A stretch of DNA of 43,730 nucleotides from a virus: IMG/VR virus record IMGVR_UViG_3300013126_000068, positions 1 to 43,730 of that record; one strand, given 5' to 3'. The number at the start of each line of letters is the position of its first letter. The stretch's first letter is position 1. Positions 1-14,839 of the stretch are shown here, one piece after another. Position numbers and translations under genes: made by a program. The notes under the pieces were generated by a model, which was given only the letters and a program-made list of their open reading frames with translations, made no database searches and had not been told where the DNA came from.

Positions 1-428
1 CCACCGCCACCCGATGCACTTAATGTTGTGCCCGTTAATGATAAACCTGAACCAATTGTAATTTCTTCAACGTCGCCTGCGCCTGCACTAGCCCTACCAA
101 GCAAGCGAGATGCCGCGCTAACATTCTGAATCTTTGCATAGGTTACTGCATCATTATCAATTGTCCAAGTAGCACCAGAACCAGTTACAGTTATATCGCC
201 TTTGTCTCCGTCAGATACACCACCACCACCTCCGCCACCTAATACATAAGAAGCAGTTGTAGCAAATGATGCAGATAAAGATTGGATAGCATAACTTGCA
301 CTACCTTGTAAAGAACCGGTGATTGATGTTGCTTGTAGTGATCCAGATATTATAGATCCATTTGATGCCGTTACAGACGCAAGGTGTGCCTGACTTCCAC
401 TAACAATTATTTTTTTCCAATTAGACAA
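1..428 (-). CDS. Tail fibre protein, N-terminal part (runs off the left edge)
   Basis: About 142 codons are present and the 3' end lies outside the window. The product begins (M)[18 protein letters not shown], matching the start of the fibre gene at 4975-6258 (MATWKKLIVSGSVAELAAV), so both probably share the tail-attachment end of a fibre. It then has Ser/Gly/Thr-rich text, a glycine run, and a segment reading [20 protein letters not shown], a repeat type I know from many phage tail fibres. The start is TTG at 426-428, with GGAG seven bases upstream (436-439); no in-frame ATG fits. It lies 46 bases after the heptosyltransferase-like gene and is probably co-transcribed or driven by the AT motif at 460-468. 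The fibre assignment is strong; the receptor-binding end cannot be seen. Confidence 0.8.
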
Positions 429-459
429 CAGGAAACTCCATGATTTATATGAATACTGC

Positions 460-468
460 TATAAATAT
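460..468 (-). promoter_or_regulatory. Candidate promoter motif ATATTTATA
   Basis: The coding strand reads ATATTTATA 32-40 bases upstream of the TTG start at 428, in a 46-base gap between genes. The same or nearly the same motif lies at a similar distance before the genes starting at 6258, 7826, 25078 and 33879. Its reverse complement, TATAAATA, is the T4 late promoter consensus, so the orientation is opposite to T4 expectation. Function is inferred only from recurrence and position. Confidence 0.35.
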
Positions 469-474
469 ATGGTT

Positions 475-1623
475 TTATGATTTCAATAACTTTTCTATGT
501 GAGGTTTTACCATATCAAATGTTATTGATTTTGTGCATTCAAACTGTCTTTGAGTTCCCTTGTGTTCTGGACACCAGTTCCAATCTCCTCTATCGAAAAG
601 ATGTTTAGCAAAACAACCATGACATACATCTTCATTTATTATACGAATAATATCAGATTTCATTTCTTGCCATGATTCAGAAAACCCACTTATTAGTATA
701 GTTGGAACATTTAGAGCCCAAGAATACCAACTCAATCCACTTCCCAATCCAACAAAAAATTTTGCACCTTGCAATATAGAACCAACTTCTTCAAGTGTTT
801 TATCTTTTATTTTTATTACACCATCTGGTTGTTTGTTACCCATATACCCATCGGGTTCTTTTGACAATAAATAAACATCATATCCTTTTGATTTCACATA
901 ATCAACCAATTCTTGCCATCCAGTTGTATTATTCCAATACTTTGCCTGTGCGGTTGAATTGGTTGCAATACAAATATGTGGCACATCATTTTGATGTTCG
1001 GTTACATTTTTTATTTTTGGTTTAATTTCAACAAAATCCAATCCCAATATATCGGATGCAGTTTGTTGCAGTGGTATTTTTCTGAAATCTGTTTTGTTAA
1101 GATTCTTATTAAAAGTATCACCGTCATAATACCAACCAATCCTATATGATGCATATAAATCATTGACAATTGTTCCAGGATTAACAAATTCAATTTCAGG
1201 ATATACGTCTTCAAATAAATGATTCAAAAATGTTGAAACTACAACTTTACAATTCCATTTTTTTCTAAATTCCTCTGCATATGGAATCCATGCAACAGTA
1301 TCTCCAAGTGATTTTGAATCAATTATTATGTAAACTTTTTTGCCACTTGCATCGTATTTATGTTCATATATCAATTCTTCTCTTTCAAAAACTCTACAAA
1401 TATATTCTTCAAAGTATTTTTTTGAAGTTTTAGACCAGGTATTTGAATTTACAAATGAAGTATATTCTATTTTACCTTCAGAATTTACAAATTCAACTCT
1501 GTAATTTGCATTCATAATTGAATTTATTTCCAAGTAAGCACCATCAACAAAATTATTTATTATATTTGATGTTTTTCCTTTACGAATTATTTTTTCATTT
1601 TTTATTAAATTATCATATATCAT
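475..1623 (-). CDS. BAHT/TibC-like protein O-heptosyltransferase (GT9-type glycosyltransferase)
   Basis: A 382-residue protein. Its layout matches bacterial autotransporter heptosyltransferases, which move heptose from ADP-heptose onto serines of surface autotransporters: an N-terminal beta-rich domain (about 1-90), then a GT-B core with SLGDT at 105-109 (the family's catalytic Asp region), a donor-site-like GLGSGLSWYSWAL near 292-304, and a C-terminal four-cysteine cluster C334, C337, C351, C363 within CHGC, DWNWCPEHKG and QFECT. In TibC such cysteines hold an iron ion (the 'iron finger'). All four are present, so the enzyme looks intact. It starts with ATG ten bases after the upstream glycosyltransferase gene and precedes a fibre gene. 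The likely substrates are the phage's own Ser-rich fibres, which is inference; modifying host surface glycans is the alternative. Confidence 0.82.
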   Translation of the reverse strand: MIYDNLIKNEKIIRKGKTSNIINNFVDGAYLEINSIMNANYRVEFVNSEGKIEYTSFVNSNTWSKTSKKYFEEYICRVFEREELIYEHKYDASGKKVYIIIDSKSLGDTVAWIPYAEEFRKKWNCKVVVSTFLNHLFEDVYPEIEFVNPGTIVNDLYASYRIGWYYDGDTFNKNLNKTDFRKIPLQQTASDILGLDFVEIKPKIKNVTEHQNDVPHICIATNSTAQAKYWNNTTGWQELVDYVKSKGYDVYLLSKEPDGYMGNKQPDGVIKIKDKTLEEVGSILQGAKFFVGLGSGLSWYSWALNVPTILISGFSESWQEMKSDIIRIINEDVCHGCFAKHLFDRGDWNWCPEHKGTQRQFECTKSITFDMVKPHIEKLLKS

Positions 1624-1633
1624 AATTCACCGA

Positions 1634-3922
1634 TTAAAGAAAATTTTGAAATCTATATTGTTTATTTATCAATTCATCTTTTGATTTCTTATGTATAACG
1701 ATACAATTTGGGTAGTAAGATATTGAACGTATGAATAAATCATTTTTATTATTACTATAATCACTGTTTACGGAATGATTTAACTTATTAAAATAATCAA
1801 CTATGTTTAAGTGTCCAGTTTCATATCCATAAATCAATGTCTCTGGTCGCCAATAACTACATTCAATATCTTCTATTACATATACCCCACCCCAATCTAA
1901 AAGATTTTGAAAAAGATAATAAAATGATTTCAATTGATGACTTGCAACGTGACTACCATCATCAACTATTATTTGACATTTTGGTATTCGTTTTACTATG
2001 TTAGTTAAATCGTTTATATTATTTTGATCACCAATAAATGTTTCCCCTCTTTTTGATTTATTTTTTTTAGTTACACCCATTCTGTGTATTTTAGCGAGAG
2101 GCAAAAAATTTTCCCAAACAGATAAAGAATTTTCATCATCCAAACCTATTTCAAATAAATTTACGTCTTTTGCTTTATATTTGGATAATACGGTTTCATA
2201 AATTTTGTGATATTCATGGGAAATTCCTTTATCACAATTAAAGGTTTTGCATAATTCTTGAAAAGATAGTTTTTCATATTTTTCAGATTTAGATAAATCT
2301 AACATCCCTTCTCTATTTAATTTATTATTTTTTTTGAGAACATTTATTGATTGTGTAAAAATTCTGCAATAACTATTTTCATAATGTTTTTGTATTTTTC
2401 TCTCTAATATATTGAAACCACTACCATCAGAATAGTATTCGTCTATATTTTTATATTTTTCAAAAAATGATTGTAGTGTATTTATATTTCCCGAAAAAAA
2501 TCCAGTATTATATGATACATCAGAGTATGCACTATCAGTCTGTTCATAAAATACAACGTCATATTCTTCTATCAAATTATCGTGTTTTTTTATAGTTATA
2601 TCATCAATAACATAATCGTAATTTACAATATGAACATTGTGTTTTCCTAAATTTTTTGCATATCGTAATGCATTTTGAATTAAAGTGTATACTGCATACC
2701 CATGTTCATAATCAAATTGTTTATAGTGTTTTTTTCTATTATCATCAATCCACCAATAATTGTATTCTAATCCATATTTTTCAAAATCACTGTTAAATAA
2801 TAGTGGATTGTTTTTCGTATAAAGAACATGGTCACACATCGGTTGAATGTCCACATCTACCATATAATTTGTGGATAATAATTTTTCACCATCAATTGAA
2901 TTTATACAATCCATTAAAAGTTTTTTTCTATAAATCGTATCTGCATGTGCAAGTATTATGGTTAAAACATCCGATTTATTTTCCATTGATAACGATGTTT
3001 TTATTTTTTTAATATCATCATCTATATTACCGGATATGTAATTTACAATACCATCATATTCATCACCATATGATTCCAACTTTTTCATAAAAACAGGAAG
3101 TCCATATGACAATGCCTCTTTCACAACCAAAGGATTTAATTCAAAATTTGATGGAAAATAAAATATGTCAGCCGCTTTGTAAAACAAATCAACATCTTCT
3201 CGTTCACCGTGCCAAATACAATTATCTGGAAAATTTCGCATTATTGGATCCCAATAATCTCTAAAATTTTGCGCCTGATTTCCAACAAAATGAAACTTAA
3301 TTTTTTCATCTTTCATTTTTCTAGCAATATCAATCAATTCTTTTTGATTTTTTCCAGAAGTAAATAATCCAACATTTAGCACATGCAAATACGAAGAATC
3401 AAAATTCAATTCTTTCTTAGCATCATCTTTATTGTAAGAAACTGATGTTATTGGATATTCCCATATATCACACATTTCTTCACCAAAAACATCAACAAAT
3501 TTGGTTTTACTCCAAGATGATACCAATATGAATTTATCCGCAGTGTAAATAATATCGTTTGGATTTGTAGTTGAGGAATGTGTTGTTACAACTATATTAT
3601 ATCTTCTATTATCGGAATATATTTTTTCCAAATCTTCGTGTGTAATGAAAGTTTCAGGTATCTCTTGAAAATGAATTACATCTGGATCTATAGATGAAAT
3701 TATTGCATGAATGTCATTGGATGAATTGGATAAACTATAAAATTTTTCACCAAGTAGATTCGATATTCTATTTCTTTGAACTGTCAGTATTCCACCTGTA
3801 ATATCTTTGTGTTCTAAACAATACACATCGTAATCATTTTTCAAACTGTCAATTAGTTTGAAAGTATATTGTGGCAAACCACCCGTGGAAAGATGTGGCA
3901 CCACAAACAAAACTTTTTTCAC
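1634..3922 (-). CDS. Three-domain glycosyltransferase / GT-A-like / sugar O-methyltransferase
   Basis: A 762-residue protein. Residues 1-312 look like a GT4 (group 1) glycosyltransferase: an N-terminal Rossmann start with HLSTGGLPQYTF, VGLFTSGKNQKE near 185-196, and the EX7E pair E261/E269 in ELNPLVVKE. Residues about 315-540 form a second region starting VLTIILAHAD that looks like a GT-A fold sugar transferase; this assignment is weaker. Residues about 555-762 resemble MycE/CmcI-type SAM-dependent methyltransferases: EIG 591-593, GDQ 631-633, VDDGSH 653-658, GGVYVIED 678-685. It probably extends and methylates a glycan, either on tail fibres with the enzyme encoded next to it or on a host polymer. 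The start is GTG at 3920-3922 with AGGTGG just upstream. It is 25 bases downstream of the LamG gene. Confidence 0.75.
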   Translation of the reverse strand: MKKVLFVVPHLSTGGLPQYTFKLIDSLKNDYDVYCLEHKDITGGILTVQRNRISNLLGEKFYSLSNSSNDIHAIISSIDPDVIHFQEIPETFITHEDLEKIYSDNRRYNIVVTTHSSTTNPNDIIYTADKFILVSSWSKTKFVDVFGEEMCDIWEYPITSVSYNKDDAKKELNFDSSYLHVLNVGLFTSGKNQKELIDIARKMKDEKIKFHFVGNQAQNFRDYWDPIMRNFPDNCIWHGEREDVDLFYKAADIFYFPSNFELNPLVVKEALSYGLPVFMKKLESYGDEYDGIVNYISGNIDDDIKKIKTSLSMENKSDVLTIILAHADTIYRKKLLMDCINSIDGEKLLSTNYMVDVDIQPMCDHVLYTKNNPLLFNSDFEKYGLEYNYWWIDDNRKKHYKQFDYEHGYAVYTLIQNALRYAKNLGKHNVHIVNYDYVIDDITIKKHDNLIEEYDVVFYEQTDSAYSDVSYNTGFFSGNINTLQSFFEKYKNIDEYYSDGSGFNILERKIQKHYENSYCRIFTQSINVLKKNNKLNREGMLDLSKSEKYEKLSFQELCKTFNCDKGISHEYHKIYETVLSKYKAKDVNLFEIGLDDENSLSVWENFLPLAKIHRMGVTKKNKSKRGETFIGDQNNINDLTNIVKRIPKCQIIVDDGSHVASHQLKSFYYLFQNLLDWGGVYVIEDIECSYWRPETLIYGYETGHLNIVDYFNKLNHSVNSDYSNNKNDLFIRSISYYPNCIVIHKKSKDELINKQYRFQNFL

Positions 3923-3947
3923 GAAACCACCTTTTTGAAATTAAAAC

Positions 3948-4760
3948 CTATAATCCATATCTATTTTTTATTACATCAAAATTTTGTTGAACTTCGATTG
4001 AAGACAAAATCTTATTATACATTCGGAATATACTCATCTTTCCATCAAAACCAAAAATTCCACTATTGTTCGGGTTTATATCACCTATAATCAAATTAGC
4101 AGCAGTATTTATATTACCAAAATTTCCAACATATGTGGGACTGTCTTGAACTTCAATACCATTTCTATAAACTTTACTACCACTACTACCAACCGTGATA
4201 ACTATTTGTTGCCATGAGTCAGTTGTTGGCGATGTTACCCAACTTAATTGTGTTGGTGAGGTTGTTCCAATTCGGAATGTATATGAACTGTTTGTAAAAA
4301 ATCCAACATAACCATTTGAATTTATGGACCTTTTTGAGAATAACATATTAGGTGAACCAACTCCTTGTATAGTTTCAATTCTAATCCACATTTCTATTGA
4401 TATGGCACTCATATCATCCAATGTTGAATTATCCGATATTGAAAAACTATCAACTTGTCCAGTTAATGTTATGCTACCACCATTTAGATCAAAAGAACCA
4501 CTTTCATTTGTAGAAAATGTTGGTGTCTGAACAAGGGTTGCATCATTTGAATTATCGGTAAGGTCTAACCAATTACCACTACCAATATATGAATACGCAT
4601 CTAAATTAAGAACTAATGAACCAGTTGAATAACTTTGAGTGGTTTCTGAACCAGTTTGTTCTGTTGGTATAGATTGAGTTAGTATAAATGAACCAACACC
4701 ACCGGTGTTTTGTATAGTTAAACCACCATTACCGCCAGTATTGATTATTTTCAAACTCAT
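3948..4760 (-). CDS. LamG/concanavalin-like lectin protein, probable tail adhesin
   Basis: A 270-residue protein. The N-terminal 60 residues are Gly/Ser/Thr-rich (MSLKIINTGGNGGLTIQNTG), typical of a fibre attachment segment. Residues about 62-265 carry the pattern of a LamG/jelly-roll domain: FDLNGGSITL, then SIEMWIRI, then DSWQQIVITVGSSGSKVYRNG, then IGDINPNN, and DGKMSIFRMYNKILSSIEVQQNF at the end. Such domains bind sugars and are common at phage tail tips. Its ATG overlaps the stop of the 58-residue gene as ATGA (4757-4760), so translation is probably coupled. It is likely a small receptor-binding or fibre-tip protein. No catalytic residues are evident. Confidence 0.75.
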   Translation of the reverse strand: MSLKIINTGGNGGLTIQNTGGVGSFILTQSIPTEQTGSETTQSYSTGSLVLNLDAYSYIGSGNWLDLTDNSNDATLVQTPTFSTNESGSFDLNGGSITLTGQVDSFSISDNSTLDDMSAISIEMWIRIETIQGVGSPNMLFSKRSINSNGYVGFFTNSSYTFRIGTTSPTQLSWVTSPTTDSWQQIVITVGSSGSKVYRNGIEVQDSPTYVGNFGNINTAANLIIGDINPNNSGIFGFDGKMSIFRMYNKILSSIEVQQNFDVIKNRYGL

Positions 4761-4933
4761 TTTACATATAACTGTTGAAGTTTGTAAACAAGGTCATACA
4801 CAACTTGCACTTCTTTCCCTTGGAAAGTGCATTCCGAAATGAGTTTCAATAAAAACTCCAACTCCCCCTTTGAAAAAGGAGGAATTGGAGGTATCGGACT
4901 ATTTTCGTTATTTTCTTTTTTAATCAATGCCAT
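4757..4933 (-). CDS. Small conserved-type phage protein, function unknown
   Basis: A 58-residue protein starting MALIKKENNENS and ending KLQQLYVK. I chose ATG 4931-4933 because AAGAG lies about seven bases upstream; a longer reading from TTG at 4990 would overlap the fibre gene ending at 4975 and has no ribosome site. The C-terminal half (ELEFLLKLISE to VVYDLVYKLQQLY) is helical and resembles small proteins found next to fibre and capsid genes in marine-type phages, of no known function. The middle, SPIPPIPPFSKGE, is encoded over a short palindrome (4864-4882) that looks like a bacterial interspersed repeat. It overlaps the LamG gene by four bases, so the two may work together. Confidence 0.6.
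   Translation of the reverse strand: MALIKKENNENSPIPPIPPFSKGELEFLLKLISECTFQGKEVQVVYDLVYKLQQLYVK
4864..4882. repeat. Short palindrome CCCCCTTT-GAA-AAAGGAGG inside the 58-residue gene
   Basis: Arms 4864-4871 and 4875-4882 pair over eight positions with one mismatch and a three-base loop. Its minus-strand translation gives PPFSKGE and its plus-strand reading gives FEKGG, both familiar from small interspersed palindromes of bacterial chromosomes. It is more GC-rich than its surroundings. It may have come from a bacterial genome; that origin is inference. Confidence 0.5.
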
Positions 4934-4974
4934 AATAAAACTCTTTATTTTTTTCATAACAAATATACAAAATT

Positions 4975-6258
4975 TTATGAATATATCCAAATGTTTCCTG
5001 AATTACTATCAACAAAAATTGTTCCGTATCCAGTAGCACCACCATAAACAGGATTAGAAGCAGGATTTGCATTTCCTTCTTGTATCACACCCATATAAGC
5101 ATCCGGTGCAATAGCAGAGCCAGTTGGAGATAAATTATTTTGAAGTGCCCAACGGTCTGCACTGGCATCAACACCGAGAGCATATCCTGTTGTTGCACCT
5201 TGTTGAACAATTATACCACCATCGGTATTTCCATCAGAACCAGATGCAAATAATGCAAATTGGTCTTCAACTGTTAAGTTTGTTGTATCTACTGTTGTTG
5301 TTGAACCATTTACAACCAAATCACCACTAACAACAAGTTTATTATTTACAGTTGTTGTTGAAGCACCACCACCTATATTAACCGAAGTTGCACCAGTTGT
5401 TCCAACATTGATAGTTGTTGCAGTTGAAGTTGCAATGTTAAATGTAGTTGATGTTGTTGTAATATCACCACCGTTTACAGCCAAATCATCATTCAATGTT
5501 AATGAAGAAAATGTTGGACTGTCTGTTTGTTCTAATCCCAAATCAACAGTCGAACCTGCAACTCCATTTGTTGTGAGAACAACCGTACCTTGTGATGATG
5601 ATCCAAGTGATGAACCACTAACTGTTCCGGTTGGTAAAGCAGACTTTACACCATTTGTAAATGTTGCAGAGTTTACATCAAGAGTAATGTTTGGTGTACT
5701 ACCTTCACCACTTGTTGCAGATGATACTAAAGCACCGGAAGCAGATACAGATTGAACATAATCACCTGTTGTATCTGTTCCAAGAGCAACAGAATTGGCT
5801 TGTATAGTTGCAACACCTGTTGTTGGATTAACTAACACATCACCACTAATACCGGCATATGATGATGAATTGAAGAATGTTTGCATTGATGCAGAATTAA
5901 CATTTAGTGTTTCACCACCAACTGCGGATAAACCATCACCCGCAATATCAGTTAATAAATTTGATAATGTAATTTTCTTATTACCACTTGTTGCATCACC
6001 GGCATCATCATTTACAAAAAATTTGTCTGAACCTGCAAGTGTTGTTTTTGCAGTTGTTGGGAATGATGGTGTTGCTGTTACACCGACCAATCCACTACCA
6101 TCGCCTGTGAATGAACCCGTGAAAGAACCAGTCAATCGGGTATCAGCTTGTGTTGGTTGAATTTGTTGATTAGTACCGACTAACACACCAACCGAAGCGC
6201 TAACCGCTGCTAATTCGGCTACACTACCCGATACTATAAGTTTTTTCCACGTTGCCAT
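4975..6258 (-). CDS. Tail fibre protein with 'WKK.IVSGS' N-terminus
   Basis: A 427-residue protein almost wholly made of Ser, Thr, Gly, Val, Asn and Ala, typical of trimeric beta-structured phage fibres. It begins MATWKKLIVSGSVAELAAV, matching the fibre gene running off the left edge. Later parts hold fibre motifs: GSFTGDGSGLVGV near 47-59, DSPTFSSLTLNDDLAVNG, TINVGTTGATSVNIGG and VVSGDLVVNGSTTTVDT. The C-terminus ends in a compact tip, GTIFVDSNSGNIWIYS. The ATG start has GGAG about seven bases upstream and an AT promoter-like motif at 6289-6297. It is probably a distal fibre or fibre-like adhesin; no enzymatic domain is seen. The high Ser/Thr content makes it a candidate target for the nearby glycosyltransferase. 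Confidence 0.85.
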   Translation of the reverse strand: MATWKKLIVSGSVAELAAVSASVGVLVGTNQQIQPTQADTRLTGSFTGSFTGDGSGLVGVTATPSFPTTAKTTLAGSDKFFVNDDAGDATSGNKKITLSNLLTDIAGDGLSAVGGETLNVNSASMQTFFNSSSYAGISGDVLVNPTTGVATIQANSVALGTDTTGDYVQSVSASGALVSSATSGEGSTPNITLDVNSATFTNGVKSALPTGTVSGSSLGSSSQGTVVLTTNGVAGSTVDLGLEQTDSPTFSSLTLNDDLAVNGGDITTTSTTFNIATSTATTINVGTTGATSVNIGGGASTTTVNNKLVVSGDLVVNGSTTTVDTTNLTVEDQFALFASGSDGNTDGGIIVQQGATTGYALGVDASADRWALQNNLSPTGSAIAPDAYMGVIQEGNANPASNPVYGGATGYGTIFVDSNSGNIWIYS

Positions 6259-6281: not shown

Positions 6282-7826
6282 TTATATGAATAAATATAGA
6301 TTACTTCCTGAAATCACTAAACTACCAGTTGAACTTATCATCGGTAATTGATTGGTAGATGGTAAGACAAAGTTACCTTCAACAGCAAGACTTCCTGTTA
6401 TATTAGCAGAACCAGTAAATACTAATGTATCTGCATCAAAAAATGAGCTACCAGTAACAGACAATGATCCAGTAAATTGATGTGTGTCATCGAGAGTATC
6501 ACCAAACTTTGATGATCCAGATGCATAAAGAGTTTGTATATTTACCACCGAAGATGAAACCACATAAGTTCTTGCAGTTATAGTTCCACCTACTAAAAGA
6601 TTTCCGTCAAAATTTGCATTGGTTGCATAAAGTGTATTAAATCTTGGTGAGTCACTTTCGGCTAAACCCAATACACCCCTCTGTCCAGATCCAGATACTA
6701 TGTTTGTTCCGAATAAATGTGATAGTGTTTGTATAGAAGATGAAACCAAACCACTCGGTTTGTTTAATATATTATTCCAATAAACACTACCACTTAATTC
6801 ACCTTCGGTTACAAATCCCAAATCTTGAATTTGTTGTGAAGATGAAATAACACCACCACCGAATATACCACTAAAAAGCGGAGCAGTAACAGTTCCTTCC
6901 GATGTTAGTGATCCACTTAAAAATAATGAACCGGTAAATTGGTGAATATCATCTATTGTATCACCAAATGCAGTTGATCCAGATGCCTTTATAGATTGTA
7001 TATCAACAACTGATGATGATATTATGTATGTTCTTGCTGTAAGTGTTCCGTTAATAAAAGCATTCCCACTTAATGTCAAACCACTAGCAGATACAGTTCC
7101 AAAAATAACATCATCTGATATTCCTATCCCAATAGAGCTTCTTTGATTTGATGAAGATATTATACCGGTGTTTTCTAAAATTTGAATGGAACTTGATACG
7201 ATTCCATATGGTTTATTAACAATGGTTTCCCAAACACTTGAAGTTATGAATCCAAAGTTTTGTATTTGTTGCGATGATGATATTGTTCCCTCGGCAACAA
7301 GATTCGTCAAACCACTACCGTCACCAACAAATCTACCGTATACTGATCCAGATACAAATACGGATCCGGTAAATTGGTGTGTATCAAATATATCGTCACC
7401 AAATATGTTTGAACCACTACTAAATGATTGGGTTACATTTATTACGGATGATGAAATAATCAATTGTCTAGCAGTTAAATCACCAGTAAGAGTTAGGTTA
7501 TTAAATGTTGGTGAATCGGTTGTAGCAAGACCAAGAACTCCTCTTTGGGTAGAACTCGATATTACATTTGTTCCAACAAGATGTGAAATGGTTTGAACGG
7601 ATGATGATACTACACCATTCGGTAATGATGCCGCGCCGATATTGGTTAATTGTGAACCATCACCCTTAAAATAAAAGGCATCAACAGTTCCAGATACGGC
7701 CAATAAAGTAACAAGAGATCCAGTTCCGTCAAGTAATGTTGAATCATCAACAGGATCTGTTTGAAGTAATCTATAATACGACTCGGAAACAAATAGATTG
7801 GTTAGGTCTCTTTGTGTACTTGGCAA
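6282..7826 (-). CDS. Tail fibre protein with three tandem ~140-150-residue repeats
   Basis: A 514-residue Ser/Gly/Thr-rich fibre. After an N-terminal segment (MPSTQRDLTNLFVSESYYRL) it holds three copies of one unit starting near residues 68, 205 and 356. Each has VSSS(V/I)Q, then (S/G)xxQR, then TAR..(I/V)(I/V)SSSV, then FGD.(I/L)(D/F)D.HQFTGS. The C-terminus is a short tip, SGSNLYLFI. The start is TTG at 7824-7826: an in-frame TAA lies directly before it and no ATG fits, while GAGAG sits seven or more bases upstream. The gene follows the collagen-like fibre by 44 bases, with an AT motif at 7850-7858 between. It is probably a fibre shaft whose length is set by repeat number. Confidence 0.82.
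   Translation of the reverse strand: MPSTQRDLTNLFVSESYYRLLQTDPVDDSTLLDGTGSLVTLLAVSGTVDAFYFKGDGSQLTNIGAASLPNGVVSSSVQTISHLVGTNVISSSTQRGVLGLATTDSPTFNNLTLTGDLTARQLIISSSVINVTQSFSSGSNIFGDDIFDTHQFTGSVFVSGSVYGRFVGDGSGLTNLVAEGTISSSQQIQNFGFITSSVWETIVNKPYGIVSSSIQILENTGIISSSNQRSSIGIGISDDVIFGTVSASGLTLSGNAFINGTLTARTYIISSSVVDIQSIKASGSTAFGDTIDDIHQFTGSLFLSGSLTSEGTVTAPLFSGIFGGGVISSSQQIQDLGFVTEGELSGSVYWNNILNKPSGLVSSSIQTLSHLFGTNIVSGSGQRGVLGLAESDSPRFNTLYATNANFDGNLLVGGTITARTYVVSSSVVNIQTLYASGSSKFGDTLDDTHQFTGSLSVTGSSFFDADTLVFTGSANITGSLAVEGNFVLPSTNQLPMISSTGSLVISGSNLYLFI
6289..6297 (-). promoter_or_regulatory. Candidate promoter motif ATATTTATT
   Basis: The coding strand reads ATATTTATT 31-39 bases upstream of the ATG at 6258, overlapping the last codons of the upstream fibre gene. 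It is one of a set of similar motifs at matching distances. Functional status is inferred from recurrence. Confidence 0.3.
6417..7625 (-). repeat. Three tandem coding repeats in a tail fibre gene
   Basis: Units begin near 7625, 7214 and 6761 and encode copies of 137-151 residues (the last is shorter). The signature FGD..(D).HQFTGS and SSSV recur once per unit. Units have diverged, so this is an old duplication and not an assembly artefact. Such repeats usually lengthen a fibre shaft. Confidence 0.75.
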
Positions 7827-7870: not shown

Positions 7871-10687
7871 TTATCCAATAACTATTACCCAAAACTGAAA
7901 ACTATCAGGAGCAGAGTTAAATCCTAATGTTACATTATCATCATCATCAACTGTAACTACATATTGTTTTTGAGTATCTGCAGTATTAGCATAAGGATAT
8001 ATTAAATCACCAGTTAATTCCTCCCTCAAGTGTACCGAAACATTGGAATCATTGAGATTGTGTGTAACTTGAAATACTGTATTTAATCCATCACCAATTC
8101 TAACACTATATTTTGCTGCACCAGATGCACCAGAAGTTCCACTAGTTCCAGATGATCCAGGTAATCCAGTAAAACCAGAAGATCCTGAAGAACCACTTGT
8201 TCCGAATGTTGTTCCTGATGATCCCGAACTTCCACTAGTTCCATCGGAACCAGATGTTCCACTTGTTCCAGTTGTTCCTGATGTACCACTTGTTCCATTA
8301 GTTCCAGATGTTCCGGATGTTCCAGTAGTTCCAGATGTACCAGATGATCCTGATGTTCCGTTTATACCGGATGTTCCCGGTAAACCACTTGTACCAGATG
8401 ATCCATTAGCTCCACTTGTACCACTAACACCGGATGTACCACTTGTACCAGATGATCCCAATCCACCAGTTCCAAATGTTCCACCATCTATTATAGCATT
8501 CTTTATTGTAACTTTACAACCATCCCATTTAATATAAGATTCACCACACGTTCCAGCACAACTTCCAGTTCCATATGAACCTGATCCAAATGTTGGGTTG
8601 TATGACCCACTCCATCCTAATAAAAAATTAGATGATTGACCTAAAATAGACATATTGAAATTTGGGGGCGTTGCACCAAAATTAAATAGAGATCCACACT
8701 CATTTATCATGTTTATACTTGCATTAGAAAATGAACCACTTGATTGATTATATGGATTACCGGTATTCATTCCCCAACCAAAATTGCTTGATACATTTGG
8801 GTATAATAATGCCTGGTTTATTCCACCGTAACCAAAAGATTGTATTGCCGAGCCAGATGTTTGTGTTGATCCACTTTGTTGTATATTTGCAAATAATTGA
8901 ACACCACTGGCACTATAAGCAGAAAGAAATGTTGAACCAGTTATTATATTATCATTACCGTATATGTAATAGTTTCCACCTTCAACAAAAATGTTTGAAT
9001 CTATTGATGATAAATTTGATTCTTTTAATGTATCATTGAAGTATTGAACTTGAAAATCCCAGTATTCTAATTTATGTTTCTGTTCAAACGGTATGTAAAG
9101 CTTTACTCGATTTGGTGTAAATCCTGGATCTAAAACTTCTTTTATTTTTATGTTTTGTAATACGGTGCCATCTTGTATGAAAAATCGCAATATGCCGTTA
9201 CCGTCTCTATCTGGTTCTATTTGTATTTGATGTTTAGATTTATATCCAGGATTTTCATTGTTAGTTACATCAATATATCCAAGTTTTTTGCCATAGTCAT
9301 CTGTGTTTACAAATGCACTTCCTGATAAATATATTTCAAGTCTTGGTGATTCTTTTTGATATAAATTATCTTTCATTAGATAATCAAATTCCAATACATA
9401 AGTTGTATCTCTATAAAAAGAAGAAGTTGTTTCAATTTTTTGTTGTAAGATTGTTTTTTTATTTGGATCTAAAATTTTATCAGATGGTAAAATAGAAATA
9501 CCATTTAATGTATTGGTTGTTGTATTGAAAATAACACTTGATGTTGGAGCGCCGTTTATTGGTATAGTTTCCCAATAGTTTATAGCCGATACTGATTTTG
9601 ATCCAGATAAACCGGCATTTCTTAAAATAATAGGTTCTTCAAATGTTCCAATTTCTACATTTAGAAAATCACCATCGTCTTTCACTAAAACATTCTTTGG
9701 TGGAACATTTCCATCATATAATAGTTTGTAATCTGATCCAGGTTCAAGTGCACTTTTGCCAAAAACCTTTACACGTGAAACAACTCCAGATGATGGATCC
9801 AACCCATCAATGTTCAATTCAACATAATTGTTTATATTTTGTGTTATATTCTTTTGTGATGCATTTGCAGGATATTCAATGGTATATGGTTGTAAATTTG
9901 AATCTAATATGGATTGAAATTCACCATTTGTTCCAAATAAAAAAAGTTCATCATTTAGTCTCAAAGTTGATGAACCGATTACATCAACAACGCTTGAAGT
10001 ATATGATAAACTTGCAGTTTGGAATGATACTTTTGGTGTATAACTTTCATTTATATTTGGAAAATATATTATTGATCCAACAATTTTATCATTAAATGAT
10101 CCATTAGATACGAACAATAGAGGTTTTCCATTGTAATGGGAATATAACCCAACTCCAGATTCCGTAATAATTCTATTTGATGTGAATTTTTCTTCTATAA
10201 TAGAATACTTTTTTTCTCTTGCAGTTATTTTTGGGTTTTCTAAAAATATAATAGGTGAGTCGTTTCTGTATCTTGCATTTATAGAGTAGTTGTGGACATA
10301 CTTTATATTGTTTTCAACTATATCAGAATCTCTTAACGGGTTTAACGAGGTATCTACCCTAGATGTTCCCATGAATGTTATTGTGCAATTTCCAACTGCA
10401 ACGTCACGGTATACATGAACTGCAATAAATAATTTGTTATTATCATCTTGATAATTGATAAATTCATGGAATACTGCCTCTCCGTCAGAATCAAGAACTT
10501 CTATTAGAATTGGTCTTGATTTTACAAGATTTTTATAGTTAGGTTGTATATTAAATAGATTTTTTCCGGATGTAAAGTATTCTGGCAAACTTAATATGTT
10601 GAAAAAATTTGGAGAATTTTCCTGCGTATCAACATATGCAGTTTGTTTGTTTATTAAATCGCGTTTAATCCGTCTGTAATAATTCAT
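7871..10687 (-). CDS. Large tail fibre/adhesin with collagen-like repeat
   Basis: A 938-residue protein. The N-terminal third starts MNYYRRIKRDLINKQ and includes Ig-like beta text such as LFIAVHVYRDVAVGNCTITFMG near 90-110, similar in style to baseplate-attached structural proteins. The middle (about 370-570) looks like a jelly-roll or carbohydrate-binding segment. Residues about 740-857 are a collagen-like run of Gly-Thr-Ser/Gly-Ser-Ser triplets with rare breaks such as GTTFG. The last 80 residues (SVRIGDGLNTVFQVTHNL to FQFWVIVIG) form a C-terminal domain commonly found at ends of phage fibres. It starts with ATG one base after the stop of the recombination gene. It is probably a receptor-binding fibre; the repeat is a plausible Ser/Thr glycosylation target. 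Confidence 0.8.
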   Translation of the reverse strand: MNYYRRIKRDLINKQTAYVDTQENSPNFFNILSLPEYFTSGKNLFNIQPNYKNLVKSRPILIEVLDSDGEAVFHEFINYQDDNNKLFIAVHVYRDVAVGNCTITFMGTSRVDTSLNPLRDSDIVENNIKYVHNYSINARYRNDSPIIFLENPKITAREKKYSIIEEKFTSNRIITESGVGLYSHYNGKPLLFVSNGSFNDKIVGSIIYFPNINESYTPKVSFQTASLSYTSSVVDVIGSSTLRLNDELFLFGTNGEFQSILDSNLQPYTIEYPANASQKNITQNINNYVELNIDGLDPSSGVVSRVKVFGKSALEPGSDYKLLYDGNVPPKNVLVKDDGDFLNVEIGTFEEPIILRNAGLSGSKSVSAINYWETIPINGAPTSSVIFNTTTNTLNGISILPSDKILDPNKKTILQQKIETTSSFYRDTTYVLEFDYLMKDNLYQKESPRLEIYLSGSAFVNTDDYGKKLGYIDVTNNENPGYKSKHQIQIEPDRDGNGILRFFIQDGTVLQNIKIKEVLDPGFTPNRVKLYIPFEQKHKLEYWDFQVQYFNDTLKESNLSSIDSNIFVEGGNYYIYGNDNIITGSTFLSAYSASGVQLFANIQQSGSTQTSGSAIQSFGYGGINQALLYPNVSSNFGWGMNTGNPYNQSSGSFSNASINMINECGSLFNFGATPPNFNMSILGQSSNFLLGWSGSYNPTFGSGSYGTGSCAGTCGESYIKWDGCKVTIKNAIIDGGTFGTGGLGSSGTSGTSGVSGTSGANGSSGTSGLPGTSGINGTSGSSGTSGTTGTSGTSGTNGTSGTSGTTGTSGTSGSDGTSGSSGSSGTTFGTSGSSGSSGFTGLPGSSGTSGTSGASGAAKYSVRIGDGLNTVFQVTHNLNDSNVSVHLREELTGDLIYPYANTADTQKQYVVTVDDDDNVTLGFNSAPDSFQFWVIVIG
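8117..8470 (-). repeat. Collagen-like Gly-X-Y triplet repeat
   Basis: Degenerate nine-base units encode about 118 residues of Gly-(Thr/Ser)-Ser type triplets, with occasional GLPG and GING. Collagen-like repeats form trimeric stalks in phage fibres. Proline is scarce and Ser/Thr dominates, unlike animal collagen. Units vary in sequence, so the tract may have changed in length by recombination. Confidence 0.85.
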
Positions 10688-10688
10688 C

Positions 10689-13600
10689 CTATGTCTCTAT
10701 TTTAGAAAAACCATTTTCTTTTTTAATCTCAATGTGATTATCAACCATGTCACGAACACTATCTATGTGTGATATAAGTATGACAAACTCAAATTGTGTT
10801 TTCAAATACTCCATGAACAGAGAGAAGTTTGCCATAACTGTTGGATCAAGAACACCCAATCCTTCATCTATTGCAATAAAGTTTGGTCTTGGTAAAGACG
10901 AAACTTGTATCAATGCTGTTCTTATGGCAAGTGATGAAATAAATTTTTCCATACCACTTGACAATTCTAAATTCCAAAAACGGTCATCGTCATATACTAT
11001 GTATGTATTGATACTCTTTCCGTCTGTATCAAATAGAACTTGGAAATCAACCACATTTGCCAATATATTATTTGTTTCTTCCTGAATACTTGGCAAAGCA
11101 TTACTTATCAATTCATACGGAACACCGTTTCTATTTACTGCTTTCAAATAATAATCGTATGCCTCATATTCTTTTTCAAGGTCTTTCAACTTTCGTATAG
11201 ATACTTCACATTCGTCTATTACTTTCTCACTAACCTTTACATTGCCATTATACTCTAAAATACTTCCATCAATCTTCTTCAATTCAATTTTTGATAGATT
11301 ATTTTTTTCATTTTCTAATTCATCAATTTCTTTTTGAATTTTATTATTCTGATTGATTGCGTCCTCATTTTCTTTATACTTTTCAATCTGAATATCTATG
11401 TTACTTATTTCATCCGTTATCTTTTTCTGTTCTTCTTTTGCAGAAAATATCTGTTTTTCTATCGAATATATCTGTTTTTCGTATTTGAAAGCACTATTTT
11501 CAATAGAGTGTAATTTTTCCAATTCAGAATAAACGGATGAATTTTTTGTAAATTCTGTGTTCAAATCATTTAATTCAAAATCTAATTCATCTCTGTCTTG
11601 TTGAAATCCCCAAATCTGTGATTTTGCTCTTTCTGCATCCTTAACAAATACATTATTTACACAAAACTCACAGTTTGGATCATACTCATGGTCTTTCAAA
11701 TTATCAATTTTATCTTGACAATGTTGAACTTTCAACTTTACACTACGCAAATCAGCTTCAAGTTCAGTTATTCTGTTACGAACAATGTCAATTCTTTCTT
11801 TTCTTAACATCAGAGTTTCTTTATCAAACTCTTTCGATAAACCAAGATACTTTGAGTGTGATGTCTTAGCATCATCTAATTCATCTTCTAATGATTTTAT
11901 TTCATTTATTAAATCATTATACTTTCTATCTAATAAATATCTCTTATCCAATAATGATTGGACAGATTTGGAAGAAAAATTGTCTCCAATCGGAATTAGT
12001 TTTTTATTCAATTCTGAAATGGAAACCGTTAATTTTTCTATTTTTTTCTCAATATAACCCTTTTGGTCAGTTGTTTCTTCCAAAAGTATTTTATTTGCCT
12101 TATGAATACCAATGGCATCTGATAATCTCGTTGAATGGTCTTGTTTCTTAAACTCCTTGACTAATGCCTGCAGCCCCTTTACTTCATCCGTAGCAATACT
12201 GTTTAATTCCTCGAATAAATTTAAGTCAAAGAATTGTGCCAACAAATCCTTTCTGTCCTTTTGTGCCTTATCCACAAAGTTTGTATTATTACCTTGTAGT
12301 GACATTGCAGTTAGGACAAAATCATCATAAGTTCCAATATACTTCCGTATGGCGTAATTAGTTCCGTCACGGTCTTCGCCGTTGAGTGATACCAAGTCAC
12401 CGTTTTCTTCACACCAAAAATCTACATTAACTTTTACATTCCCTTTCTTTTCTTTTGTGGCAACTCTCTTTATGTAAAAGTTTTTCTCACCAATCATAAA
12501 ATGTAATTTACATTGAAAGTTATCTTTCTTATTATTTAGAACTTGTGCTGCCTTGAATGTTCTTGAGCATTTGTCAAATAGACAAAACATAATTGCATCA
12601 AGAACAGAAGACTTACCACTTGCATTTGGGGCAAACAATCCGTATATCCCATTCATTCCATCGAATTGTATTCTGTTACCCTTTCCATATGAAAACATAT
12701 TTTCAAATTCAAATGAAATTGGTTTCCATATAAGGTTACGGACAACATCACTTTCTGATAATTTAGTGTTTACATTTCTGTTTATACCTCTAATCTTTTC
12801 AAGTATATCGTCTGTTACTGTAAACTTATCATTTACATAATTCGTAATAAGTTTGTTTTGATATTCAACATCACGAATTTTACCAATTGGATTTACTTTT
12901 GTTTGAACATTGCCATTACTTGAACCAACAAGATGTTGTGTTCTAATATCTATAACATTCGTCAATGACTTTAATTCAGTCATTATTTGATTTACTTCGG
13001 AATGTGGTGTGTTGGTTATACGCAAACGAATTGAATTATTCTTTGTCCACTTTGTTGGCAACTTTTTAATCTTACCGTTTTCAACATCAATCGTATGATA
13101 AGACCAATCATTTTCAATTTCAATAAACTTTGATTTCTTATTCTTAATATCCCATTCAATAATACCGTGAACTAAACCTTCACCGTAGTTTTGTTGTATG
13201 AGTGAACCTGCATAAGCAAACTTACCATCAACATCAAGATATTGAAACTTGTGAATATCCCCAAACATACCATAGTCGAACCCATCAAACATTTCAATCT
13301 TTACATCATTGTGTTTCATAAGAACACCAGTATCGGTTGATGCCCTATCAACCGGTCCGTGATATAATACTATTTTTGCTCTATCACTTTGAACATCATT
13401 TGATAAAATAAAGTCTTTTGGATTTTCGTAAACAGAATTAAGAACAAAATCAACATTCTCCAATGAGTATACACCACTTTGTTTTAGATAAAATAATTCA
13501 TTCATTTCACCATTTATCAATGAAACAATAGGTGAAAGTGCATCCATTCTACTCATGTTATTTAAGTTACAATCGTGATTACCTGCAATCAAAATGGTTG

Positions 13601-13868
13601 GTGCAATTCTGGAAAGTGTATCAAGAAAATCAGTTACCATATCAACCAGTTCTGGCGTCATGTCTGTTTTTGCATGAACAATGTCACCTGCAAGATATAT
13701 GATAGTATTTTTATTTTCTTTTACTTTATTTTCACAAATATCATAAAGTTTTTTGAACACACTTCTATATTCATCATGTCTTTTTAGATTACGAATGTGA
13801 ACATCAGCAATATGTAGTATGGTATCAACACGGGAAAGTCCGCCTGCCCATAATGTTTCTTTAAGCAT
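10689..13868 (-). CDS. Fused Mre11/SbcD-like nuclease and Rad50/SbcC-like ATPase (gp47-gp46 fusion)
   Basis: A 1059-residue protein combining two proteins that are separate in T4. The N-terminal ~345 residues are a metallophosphoesterase: HIADVH (D22, H24), AGDIVH (D62), AGNHD (96-99), LYHGP near 168 and GDIHKF near 203. From about 380 it is an SMC-like ATPase: Walker A in FAPNASGKSS near 410, long coiled coils, a zinc hook CEFC near 735, the ABC signature region LSSGMEKF near 970, Walker B FIAIDEGLGVLD near 1000 and a switch His in ISHID. It should process DNA ends for recombination-dependent replication. All key motifs are present. Its ATG overlaps the primase gene by eight bases. The single-chain arrangement fixes 1:1 stoichiometry. 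Confidence 0.93.
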   Translation of the reverse strand: MLKETLWAGGLSRVDTILHIADVHIRNLKRHDEYRSVFKKLYDICENKVKENKNTIIYLAGDIVHAKTDMTPELVDMVTDFLDTLSRIAPTILIAGNHDCNLNNMSRMDALSPIVSLINGEMNELFYLKQSGVYSLENVDFVLNSVYENPKDFILSNDVQSDRAKIVLYHGPVDRASTDTGVLMKHNDVKIEMFDGFDYGMFGDIHKFQYLDVDGKFAYAGSLIQQNYGEGLVHGIIEWDIKNKKSKFIEIENDWSYHTIDVENGKIKKLPTKWTKNNSIRLRITNTPHSEVNQIMTELKSLTNVIDIRTQHLVGSSNGNVQTKVNPIGKIRDVEYQNKLITNYVNDKFTVTDDILEKIRGINRNVNTKLSESDVVRNLIWKPISFEFENMFSYGKGNRIQFDGMNGIYGLFAPNASGKSSVLDAIMFCLFDKCSRTFKAAQVLNNKKDNFQCKLHFMIGEKNFYIKRVATKEKKGNVKVNVDFWCEENGDLVSLNGEDRDGTNYAIRKYIGTYDDFVLTAMSLQGNNTNFVDKAQKDRKDLLAQFFDLNLFEELNSIATDEVKGLQALVKEFKKQDHSTRLSDAIGIHKANKILLEETTDQKGYIEKKIEKLTVSISELNKKLIPIGDNFSSKSVQSLLDKRYLLDRKYNDLINEIKSLEDELDDAKTSHSKYLGLSKEFDKETLMLRKERIDIVRNRITELEADLRSVKLKVQHCQDKIDNLKDHEYDPNCEFCVNNVFVKDAERAKSQIWGFQQDRDELDFELNDLNTEFTKNSSVYSELEKLHSIENSAFKYEKQIYSIEKQIFSAKEEQKKITDEISNIDIQIEKYKENEDAINQNNKIQKEIDELENEKNNLSKIELKKIDGSILEYNGNVKVSEKVIDECEVSIRKLKDLEKEYEAYDYYLKAVNRNGVPYELISNALPSIQEETNNILANVVDFQVLFDTDGKSINTYIVYDDDRFWNLELSSGMEKFISSLAIRTALIQVSSLPRPNFIAIDEGLGVLDPTVMANFSLFMEYLKTQFEFVILISHIDSVRDMVDNHIEIKKENGFSKIET

Positions 13869-14814
13869 ACAATATCCTCTGTTTAATTATATCATAACTG
13901 TCTGTTGGTGGTGTAACTGATTTCAAACTTGAAAAATCCTTGAAACCCATTTCATTTATATCTTTACTTTGCATTTGAACTATTGATACATTTATACCTT
14001 CCGATAGAATTGACGAAGATATTTTTATAGCATCCGAATAAGCATCATTATCAAGTGCAACAATTATTTTTGGTGGTTTGCGAAGTAAAATTCTTTCTCG
14101 AAGTTTTGGTTGAATTATTTTGCCAAAGAGTGGAACTACATTATATCTGGCAGTAATTGCATCAAATACACCTTCAACCAATGTTACTGGTTCATCCCAA
14201 TCAATAAAACAATCAAATCCAATAACATCTTTACTCCACTTTGGATTTTTATATTTCAACATATCTTCTTCAAATATAGAACGAGAAACAAAAAAGTTTA
14301 GATTGAAATTTTCATCATAGGATGGAACAATAATTCTGCCAGAGTAATTACCATTAGGACAATATCCAATACCATAACGCAATATATCTGTTCTACCAAT
14401 TCCTCTTGATTTCAAGTAACCCAATGCCTGTTTCATTTGCATCTTTACTTGAATATCCTTTATTCTTGGATATTCATATAAACGAATAAACTCTTTTGGT
14501 AAAACTAATTCTTCTTTTGTTTCGGTCTTATTATTGATGTATAAATTTTTGGTTTTAAGGATTTTGTTAAGGTCATCTAGGTATTGTTTACCAGCTTTTA
14601 ATTTTTTGAATAGTGAAACTATACTTCTACCTTTAGCATTACTAACCCAACAATGCCATGGATTTTCACCGTTATTGTTTACGGTTAAATCAATTTCAAG
14701 TTTTGGTTTGTAATGACTGATAAAAGGTGAGAAGAACGAATAATTGTTGCCAGATGTCTTTCTACCTTTACCGAGAACTTTCTCAACAAGAGATAACAAA
14801 TCGTAGTTTATCAT
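13861..14814 (-). CDS. DnaG-like primase with TOPRIM domain and degenerate zinc site
   Basis: About 317 residues from ATG 14812-14814; a GTG at 14820 would add two residues, and neither start has a strong ribosome site. Residues about 20-70 align in style with the primase zinc ribbon (SPFISHYKPKL to NPWHCWVSNAKGRSIVSLF), but of the usual ligands only HC remains, so zinc binding is probably lost. The central part includes LKSRGIGRTDILRYGIGYC and SGRIIVPSYDENFNLNFFVSR. The TOPRIM acidic motifs are LVEGVFDAI near 210-220 and IVALDNDAY near 250. It should make RNA primers for lagging-strand synthesis with a helicase not in this window. It overlaps the Mre11-Rad50 gene by eight bases and lies downstream of a perfect inverted repeat. 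Confidence 0.85.
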   Translation of the reverse strand: MINYDLLSLVEKVLGKGRKTSGNNYSFFSPFISHYKPKLEIDLTVNNNGENPWHCWVSNAKGRSIVSLFKKLKAGKQYLDDLNKILKTKNLYINNKTETKEELVLPKEFIRLYEYPRIKDIQVKMQMKQALGYLKSRGIGRTDILRYGIGYCPNGNYSGRIIVPSYDENFNLNFFVSRSIFEEDMLKYKNPKWSKDVIGFDCFIDWDEPVTLVEGVFDAITARYNVVPLFGKIIQPKLRERILLRKPPKIIVALDNDAYSDAIKISSSILSEGINVSIVQMQSKDINEMGFKDFSSLKSVTPPTDSYDIIKQRILYA

Positions 14815-14839
14815 AACCACACTTTACGGAAAATAATAC

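Follow-up and report, generated by a model that had tools for sequence, protein, structure and literature searches.

Predicted O-glycosylation of phage tail fibers at collagen-like Gly-Thr-Ser repeats by a gene cassette with a BAHT-family enzyme

We predict that a gene cassette in the window, that is, the whole 43.7-kb IMG/VR virus record analyzed here, encodes a cytoplasmic O-glycosylation system acting on the phage's own tail fibers at collagen-like Gly-Thr-Ser (GTS) repeats; we put the probability of this reading at about 0.7. It is based on the enzyme families and their catalytic residues, purifying selection, gene order, the fusion of the enzymes in Microcystis phage Mel-JY01, and a strong tendency to co-occur with GTS repeats, in bacteria as well as in phages. 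Self-glycosylation of the fibers had been proposed in an earlier, sequence-only reading of this DNA, and in the modified form given here, with the GTS repeats as the target, it is well supported because the BAHT enzyme of the cassette tracks these repeats in both phages and methanotrophs.

The phage is probably contractile-tailed, since baseplate wedge genes are present; its nearest isolate among the matches listed is Mel-JY01, whose baseplate wedge shares 70% identity with that of the window along its entire length. Photosystem genes, considered as a host clue, were found in none of 16 relatives. All main genes of the window lie on the minus strand, in the transcription order fibD, fibC, fibB, a small ORF (also on the minus strand), LamG, GT4-GT-A-MT, BAHT, fibA, and the genes of the cassette region are separated by gaps of 10-47 bp or overlap. 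The fibD gene (7871-10687) encodes a tail fiber of 938 aa (PHROG tail fiber, 5.5e-16), and fibC (6282-7826) contains ten SSS motifs. Immediately upstream of the fiber genes, at 10689-14820 and surrounded by structural genes, are genes for SbcC-like (1059 aa) and primase-like proteins. As the sequence-only reading noted, the cassette region is flanked by two fiber genes with a common WKK motif. In other phages, too, the cassette lies between these two fibers. The upstream one, fibB (4975-6258, 427 aa), starts with MATWKKLIVSGS, carries the motif WKKLIVSGS and is free of collagen-like repeats. The downstream one, fibA (3-428), carries WKKIIVSGS and is represented by its N-terminus only, being truncated at the contig end; its start codon is TTG, preceded by GGAG, and TTG seems to be the start in all relatives examined (L002, L007, L008, L014, L092, and L101).

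The predicted protein O-glycosyltransferase of the BAHT (TibC/AAH-like) family is encoded at 475-1623 (382 aa). Its earlier assignment as BAHT-like holds, with a score of 294.8 bits against the NCBIfam model TIGR04414 (curated cut-off 200), and the protein is homologous over nearly its full length to TibC/AAH (PDB 4rap/4rb4), with 1.5e-63 for TibC (4rap). When the residue roles described for TibC (PMC4358343) are mapped onto it, the catalytic Asp108 (Asp110 of TibC), the phosphate- and sugar-contacting Thr224, Lys228, and Trp299, and all four iron-finger cysteines (334, 337, 351, and 363) are retained. The same positions are conserved in 73 phage-type relatives: Asp, Lys, and Trp in every one, Thr in 69, and the iron-finger cysteines in 72. 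In contrast, Arg286 of TibC, which contacts adenine, is replaced by Val280 in the window and is Arg in only 5/73 phage-type relatives. The phage type further differs from TibC/AAH in often being fused to glycosyltransferase or methyltransferase domains, in its partner, which is an autotransporter for TibC/AAH and a collagen-like GTS-repeat fiber for the phage type, and in its phylogenetic position. In a quick, midpoint-rooted tree, of which we rely on the classical-BAHT clade only, the classical BAHTs are set apart as a clade with full support, and the GTS-type sequences of methanotrophs fall among the phage sequences. The product of 475-1623 is thus best described as a BAHT homolog from a separate clade, an assignment from sequence that does not imply heptosyltransferase activity.

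The second enzyme gene (1634-3922) encodes a protein of 762 aa with three domains recognized by Pfam, phmmer, and structure comparison. The GT4 domain (about 2975-3922) scores above the cut-off for PF00534, with a structural Z of 26 to HepE (4xsu). The methyltransferase domain (about 1637-2287) is similar to MycE (3ssm; phmmer 2e-13) and SpnK (8ia9; 3e-8), with Z of about 24 and 24% identity, and its substrate is inferred to be a sugar. The middle domain (2288-2977) was described by the sequence-only reading as GT-A along with the other two; it matches no Pfam family, and its predicted structure (pLDDT 90) has a GT-A-like fold that matches GT-A glycosyltransferases and nucleotidyltransferases equally (Z 14-15), so that the GT4 and methyltransferase assignments stand and the GT-A one applies to the fold alone. 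Judging from dN/dS of about 0.14 between the window and L002 (0.14 for 475-1623 and 0.135 for 1634-3922), both enzyme genes are under purifying selection and thus maintained.

The two enzymes appear to belong together. Among the matches listed, GT4 is fused to BAHT or lies at most 66 bp away in 36 of 51 BAHT clusters, and in Mel-JY01 the GT4, middle, methyltransferase, and BAHT domains are fused, in the same order as in the window, within one ORF of 1226 aa (WWT39291.1, L082:4750-8430, annotated only as "methyltransferase FkbM"). As a block flanked by the two WKK fibers, the cassette is conserved in L002, L003, L004, L006, L007, L008, L010, and L014, with BAHT as its last gene and the other modules variable: GT4-GT-A-MT in L002, as in the window; GT4 with an FkbM methyltransferase in L003, L006, L007, and L010; two methyltransferase domains in L008; and GT4-GT25 plus FkbM in L014. 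The same fibers occur free of the enzymes in L092, L094, L095, L096, L101, and L102, and fibB of the cassette-negative L092 is 86% identical to that of the window. A search with the GT4-GT-A-MT protein alone yielded eight loci among the matches listed, so the association rests mainly on the BAHT-, fibB-, and repeat-based searches.

The sequence-only reading saw a single functional unit that also included a lectin, and proposed checking whether all four gene types recur next to fibers in other phages. For the enzymes, linked to fiber genes, a unit is supported by the fusions and by their recurrence between the same WKK fibers. The LamG gene is present as described (3948-4760, 270 aa; Laminin_G_3, 57.7 bits, Pfam cut-off 27.6), but was ruled out as a cassette member by its independent gain and loss: it is found without the enzymes in the siblings L092, L094, and L095, and the enzymes without it in L002, L003, and L006. 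Similarly, the small conserved ORF following fibB (4757-4990, 77 aa from a TTG start or 58 aa from an internal Met), which the sequence-only reading did not mention, lies outside the cassette, since it occurs in relatives both with and without it; the window's copy contains a PPIPPFSKGE motif.

The likely acceptor was missing from the sequence-only reading; it resides in a fiber outside the coordinates considered there. Close to its C-terminus, the fibD product has a collagen-like Gly-X-Y array (8114-8458, minus strand; Pfam Collagen, 5.6e-14) of 28 + 10 triplets, in which Gly-Thr-Ser and Gly-Ser-Ser predominate. Cassette-positive phages have long (Gly-Thr/Ser-Ser)n arrays of up to 167 triplets in fibA and/or fibD; for instance, the fibA orthologs of L003, L004, L008, L009, L010, and L014 carry 50-167 triplets. 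Such arrays were found in every cassette-positive sibling contig that retains fibD or a full fibA and in none of seven cassette-negative siblings. The cassette-positive L002 (identical to L106) has no array; its contig is a fragment that stops short of fibD. More broadly, among the matches listed, collagen-like runs occur near BAHT in 39/51 clusters, scored within the sequence on each contig, many of which are fragments, compared with 10/69 other loci, three of those ten being truncated contigs of the cassette type. About a quarter of the BAHT clusters thus have no array in the sequence at hand, and fragmentation applies to some of them; of the near-copies L035 and L036, arrays are seen in the larger contig of L036 and not in that of L035, and the strict GTS pattern is absent from the 88-kb contig L079.

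The association was also seen in the reverse direction. Among the contigs listed, BAHT was found in 22/79 of those chosen solely by a (GTS)3G DNA pattern, compared with 1/50 chosen by the collagen pattern (GPQ)3GP and 0/38 with neither pattern, the last set excluding Mel-JY01, which had been included on purpose and was the sole positive there. The corresponding Fisher p values are about 9e-5 and 8e-5; the contig sets are non-random and phylogenetically non-independent, which bears on both the co-occurrence counts and p, and part of the co-occurrence could come from a common phage lineage or habitat. The sole GPQ contig with BAHT also has 89 matches to the GTS pattern. At X and Y, the repeats of BAHT loci have a median of 76% Ser/Thr and no proline, a composition that is informative for these loci only, as the GPQ set was selected for proline. 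Because BAHT associates with the repeats, we infer that the acceptor is probably Ser/Thr of the collagen-like (Gly-Thr-Ser)n repeats, located in the window at 8114-8458. Neither the BAHT and GTS-repeat pairing nor a paper combining heptosyltransferase, collagen-like, and bacteriophage was found in the literature searched.

The pairing extends to bacterial chromosomes. A scan of bacterial genomes showed, among the matches listed, that Methylobacter and other members of the Methylococcaceae encode close relatives of BAHT; in this family, BAHT scored above the cut-off in 12/201 genomes, in two kinds. The phage-like kind (303-327 bits) adjoins a small GTS-repeat protein in seven of eight loci (L439, L440, L442, L444, L489, L491, and L492); this protein has a signal-peptide-like N-terminus and is found in both tandem and convergent arrangements with BAHT. 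At the eighth locus, L490, the neighbor is a homolog with poly-Ser. The classical kind (about 655 bits) adjoins large autotransporter-like repeat proteins in 5/5 cases. Thus the kind of BAHT predicts the kind of partner, a GTS or poly-Ser protein for the phage-like enzymes and an autotransporter-like one for the classical enzymes.

The usual reading of glycosyltransferases encoded in phage fiber regions is that they act against the host surface. Accordingly, the enzymes might alter a host surface polysaccharide (LPS or O-antigen) against superinfection, their proximity to fibers reflecting a common role at the host surface, as was proposed for glycosyltransferases in the fiber region of pelagimyophages (PMC7029224); GT4, FkbM, and MycE-like enzymes are indeed known also from polysaccharide or natural-product synthesis. 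However, the constant member of the cassette is BAHT, whose characterized representatives modify proteins and not lipopolysaccharide (PMC4358343), and BAHT tracks GTS repeats and adjoins a secreted GTS-repeat protein on methanotroph chromosomes, which makes this explanation unlikely. We give similarly little weight to a protein target other than the collagen-like fibers, either another virion or host protein with Ser/Thr-rich repeats, or those beta-rich regions of the WKK fibers that are not collagen-like and contain SSS motifs, the collagen-like fibers being merely correlated. Classical BAHTs do act on strand-loop-strand repeats and not on collagen, fibC of the window has its ten SSS motifs, and one methanotroph partner is poly-Ser rather than Gly-Thr-Ser; however, SSS motifs are equally present in the cassette-negative siblings, which have no GTS arrays, and the autotransporter repeat model TIGR04415 matches none of the fibers examined. 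Finally, that these are passenger genes unconnected to virion proteins, as might be expected from the hypervariability and frequent gene gain of phage host-recognition regions (general knowledge; PMC7029224), is very improbable given the purifying selection, the intact catalytic residues, and the fusions and shared gene order that recur across diverse phages.

Under self-glycosylation of the fibers, we propose that in the host cytoplasm BAHT would transfer the first sugar, heptose or a related one, from a nucleotide donor onto Ser/Thr of the Gly-Thr-Ser repeats, the targets being the fibD array at 8114-8458 and probably also the truncated distal portion of fibA. Extension of the sugar chain would then fall to the GT4 and GT-A domains of 1634-3922, and the MycE-like domain of the same protein would O-methylate one of the sugars; this order of steps is suggested by enzyme type. 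A possible benefit would be stiffening or protection of the nearly proline-free collagen-like shaft, shielding, or altered adhesion.

The donor, suggested by the enzyme family, is less certain than the acceptor and may not be ADP-heptose, since TibC Arg286 corresponds to Val280 here and is Arg in so few relatives. Synthesis of ADP-heptose by these phages themselves was rejected: among the phage contigs, a gmhA-like gene was found only in L041 and L042, near-identical jumbo contigs (343-373 kb) with BAHT, where it scores 188 bits (cut-off 209), and rfaE-like matches there, including a weak rfaE-domain-II-like gene, and elsewhere are far below the cut-off. A heptose supply of their own is possible for these two contigs. 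Neither gmhA nor rfaE domain II was found in Mel-JY01 or the window, and the "cytidylyltransferase like protein" of Mel-JY01 is not HldE-like; with gmhA-like genes absent from both, the donor would have to come from the host.

Glycosylation of phage virions as such is not new, since O-glycosylation of capsid or tail by phage glycosyltransferases is known in mycobacteriophages (Freeman et al. 2023, as cited in PMC11256854 and PMC11652166); the new element, judged by the literature searched, is the likely pairing of BAHT with GTS repeats. Mycobacterial prophages such as McProf encode a methyltransferase distantly homologous to that of 1634-3922 and adjoining a glycosyltransferase, and no BAHT match was found in those mycobacteriophage and prophage records. 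MycE and SpnK function in macrolide biosynthesis, whereas the homologous domain of the window is part of a glycosyltransferase polypeptide. In BclA of Bacillus spores, O-glycans that include a methylated sugar are attached to Thr of collagen-like triplets; that system differs in its glycosyltransferases, in having Pro-Thr rather than Thr-Ser triplets, and in belonging to a spore and not a phage.

BAHT and the GTS repeats represent a testable enzyme-substrate pair that points to the phage's own fiber, predicts which proteins and residues bear sugars, and suggests a role for an almost proline-free type of repeat common in environmental phages. We lean towards the view that a distinct BAHT clade, found in environmental phages and some methanotrophs, is specialized for O-glycosylating collagen-like Gly-Thr/Ser-Ser repeats, and that phages add interchangeable glycosyltransferase and methyltransferase modules to produce diverse glycans on proline-poor collagen-like tail fibers. 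The BAHT family would then gain a second kind of acceptor, for which the methanotroph gene pair would be a simple bench model.
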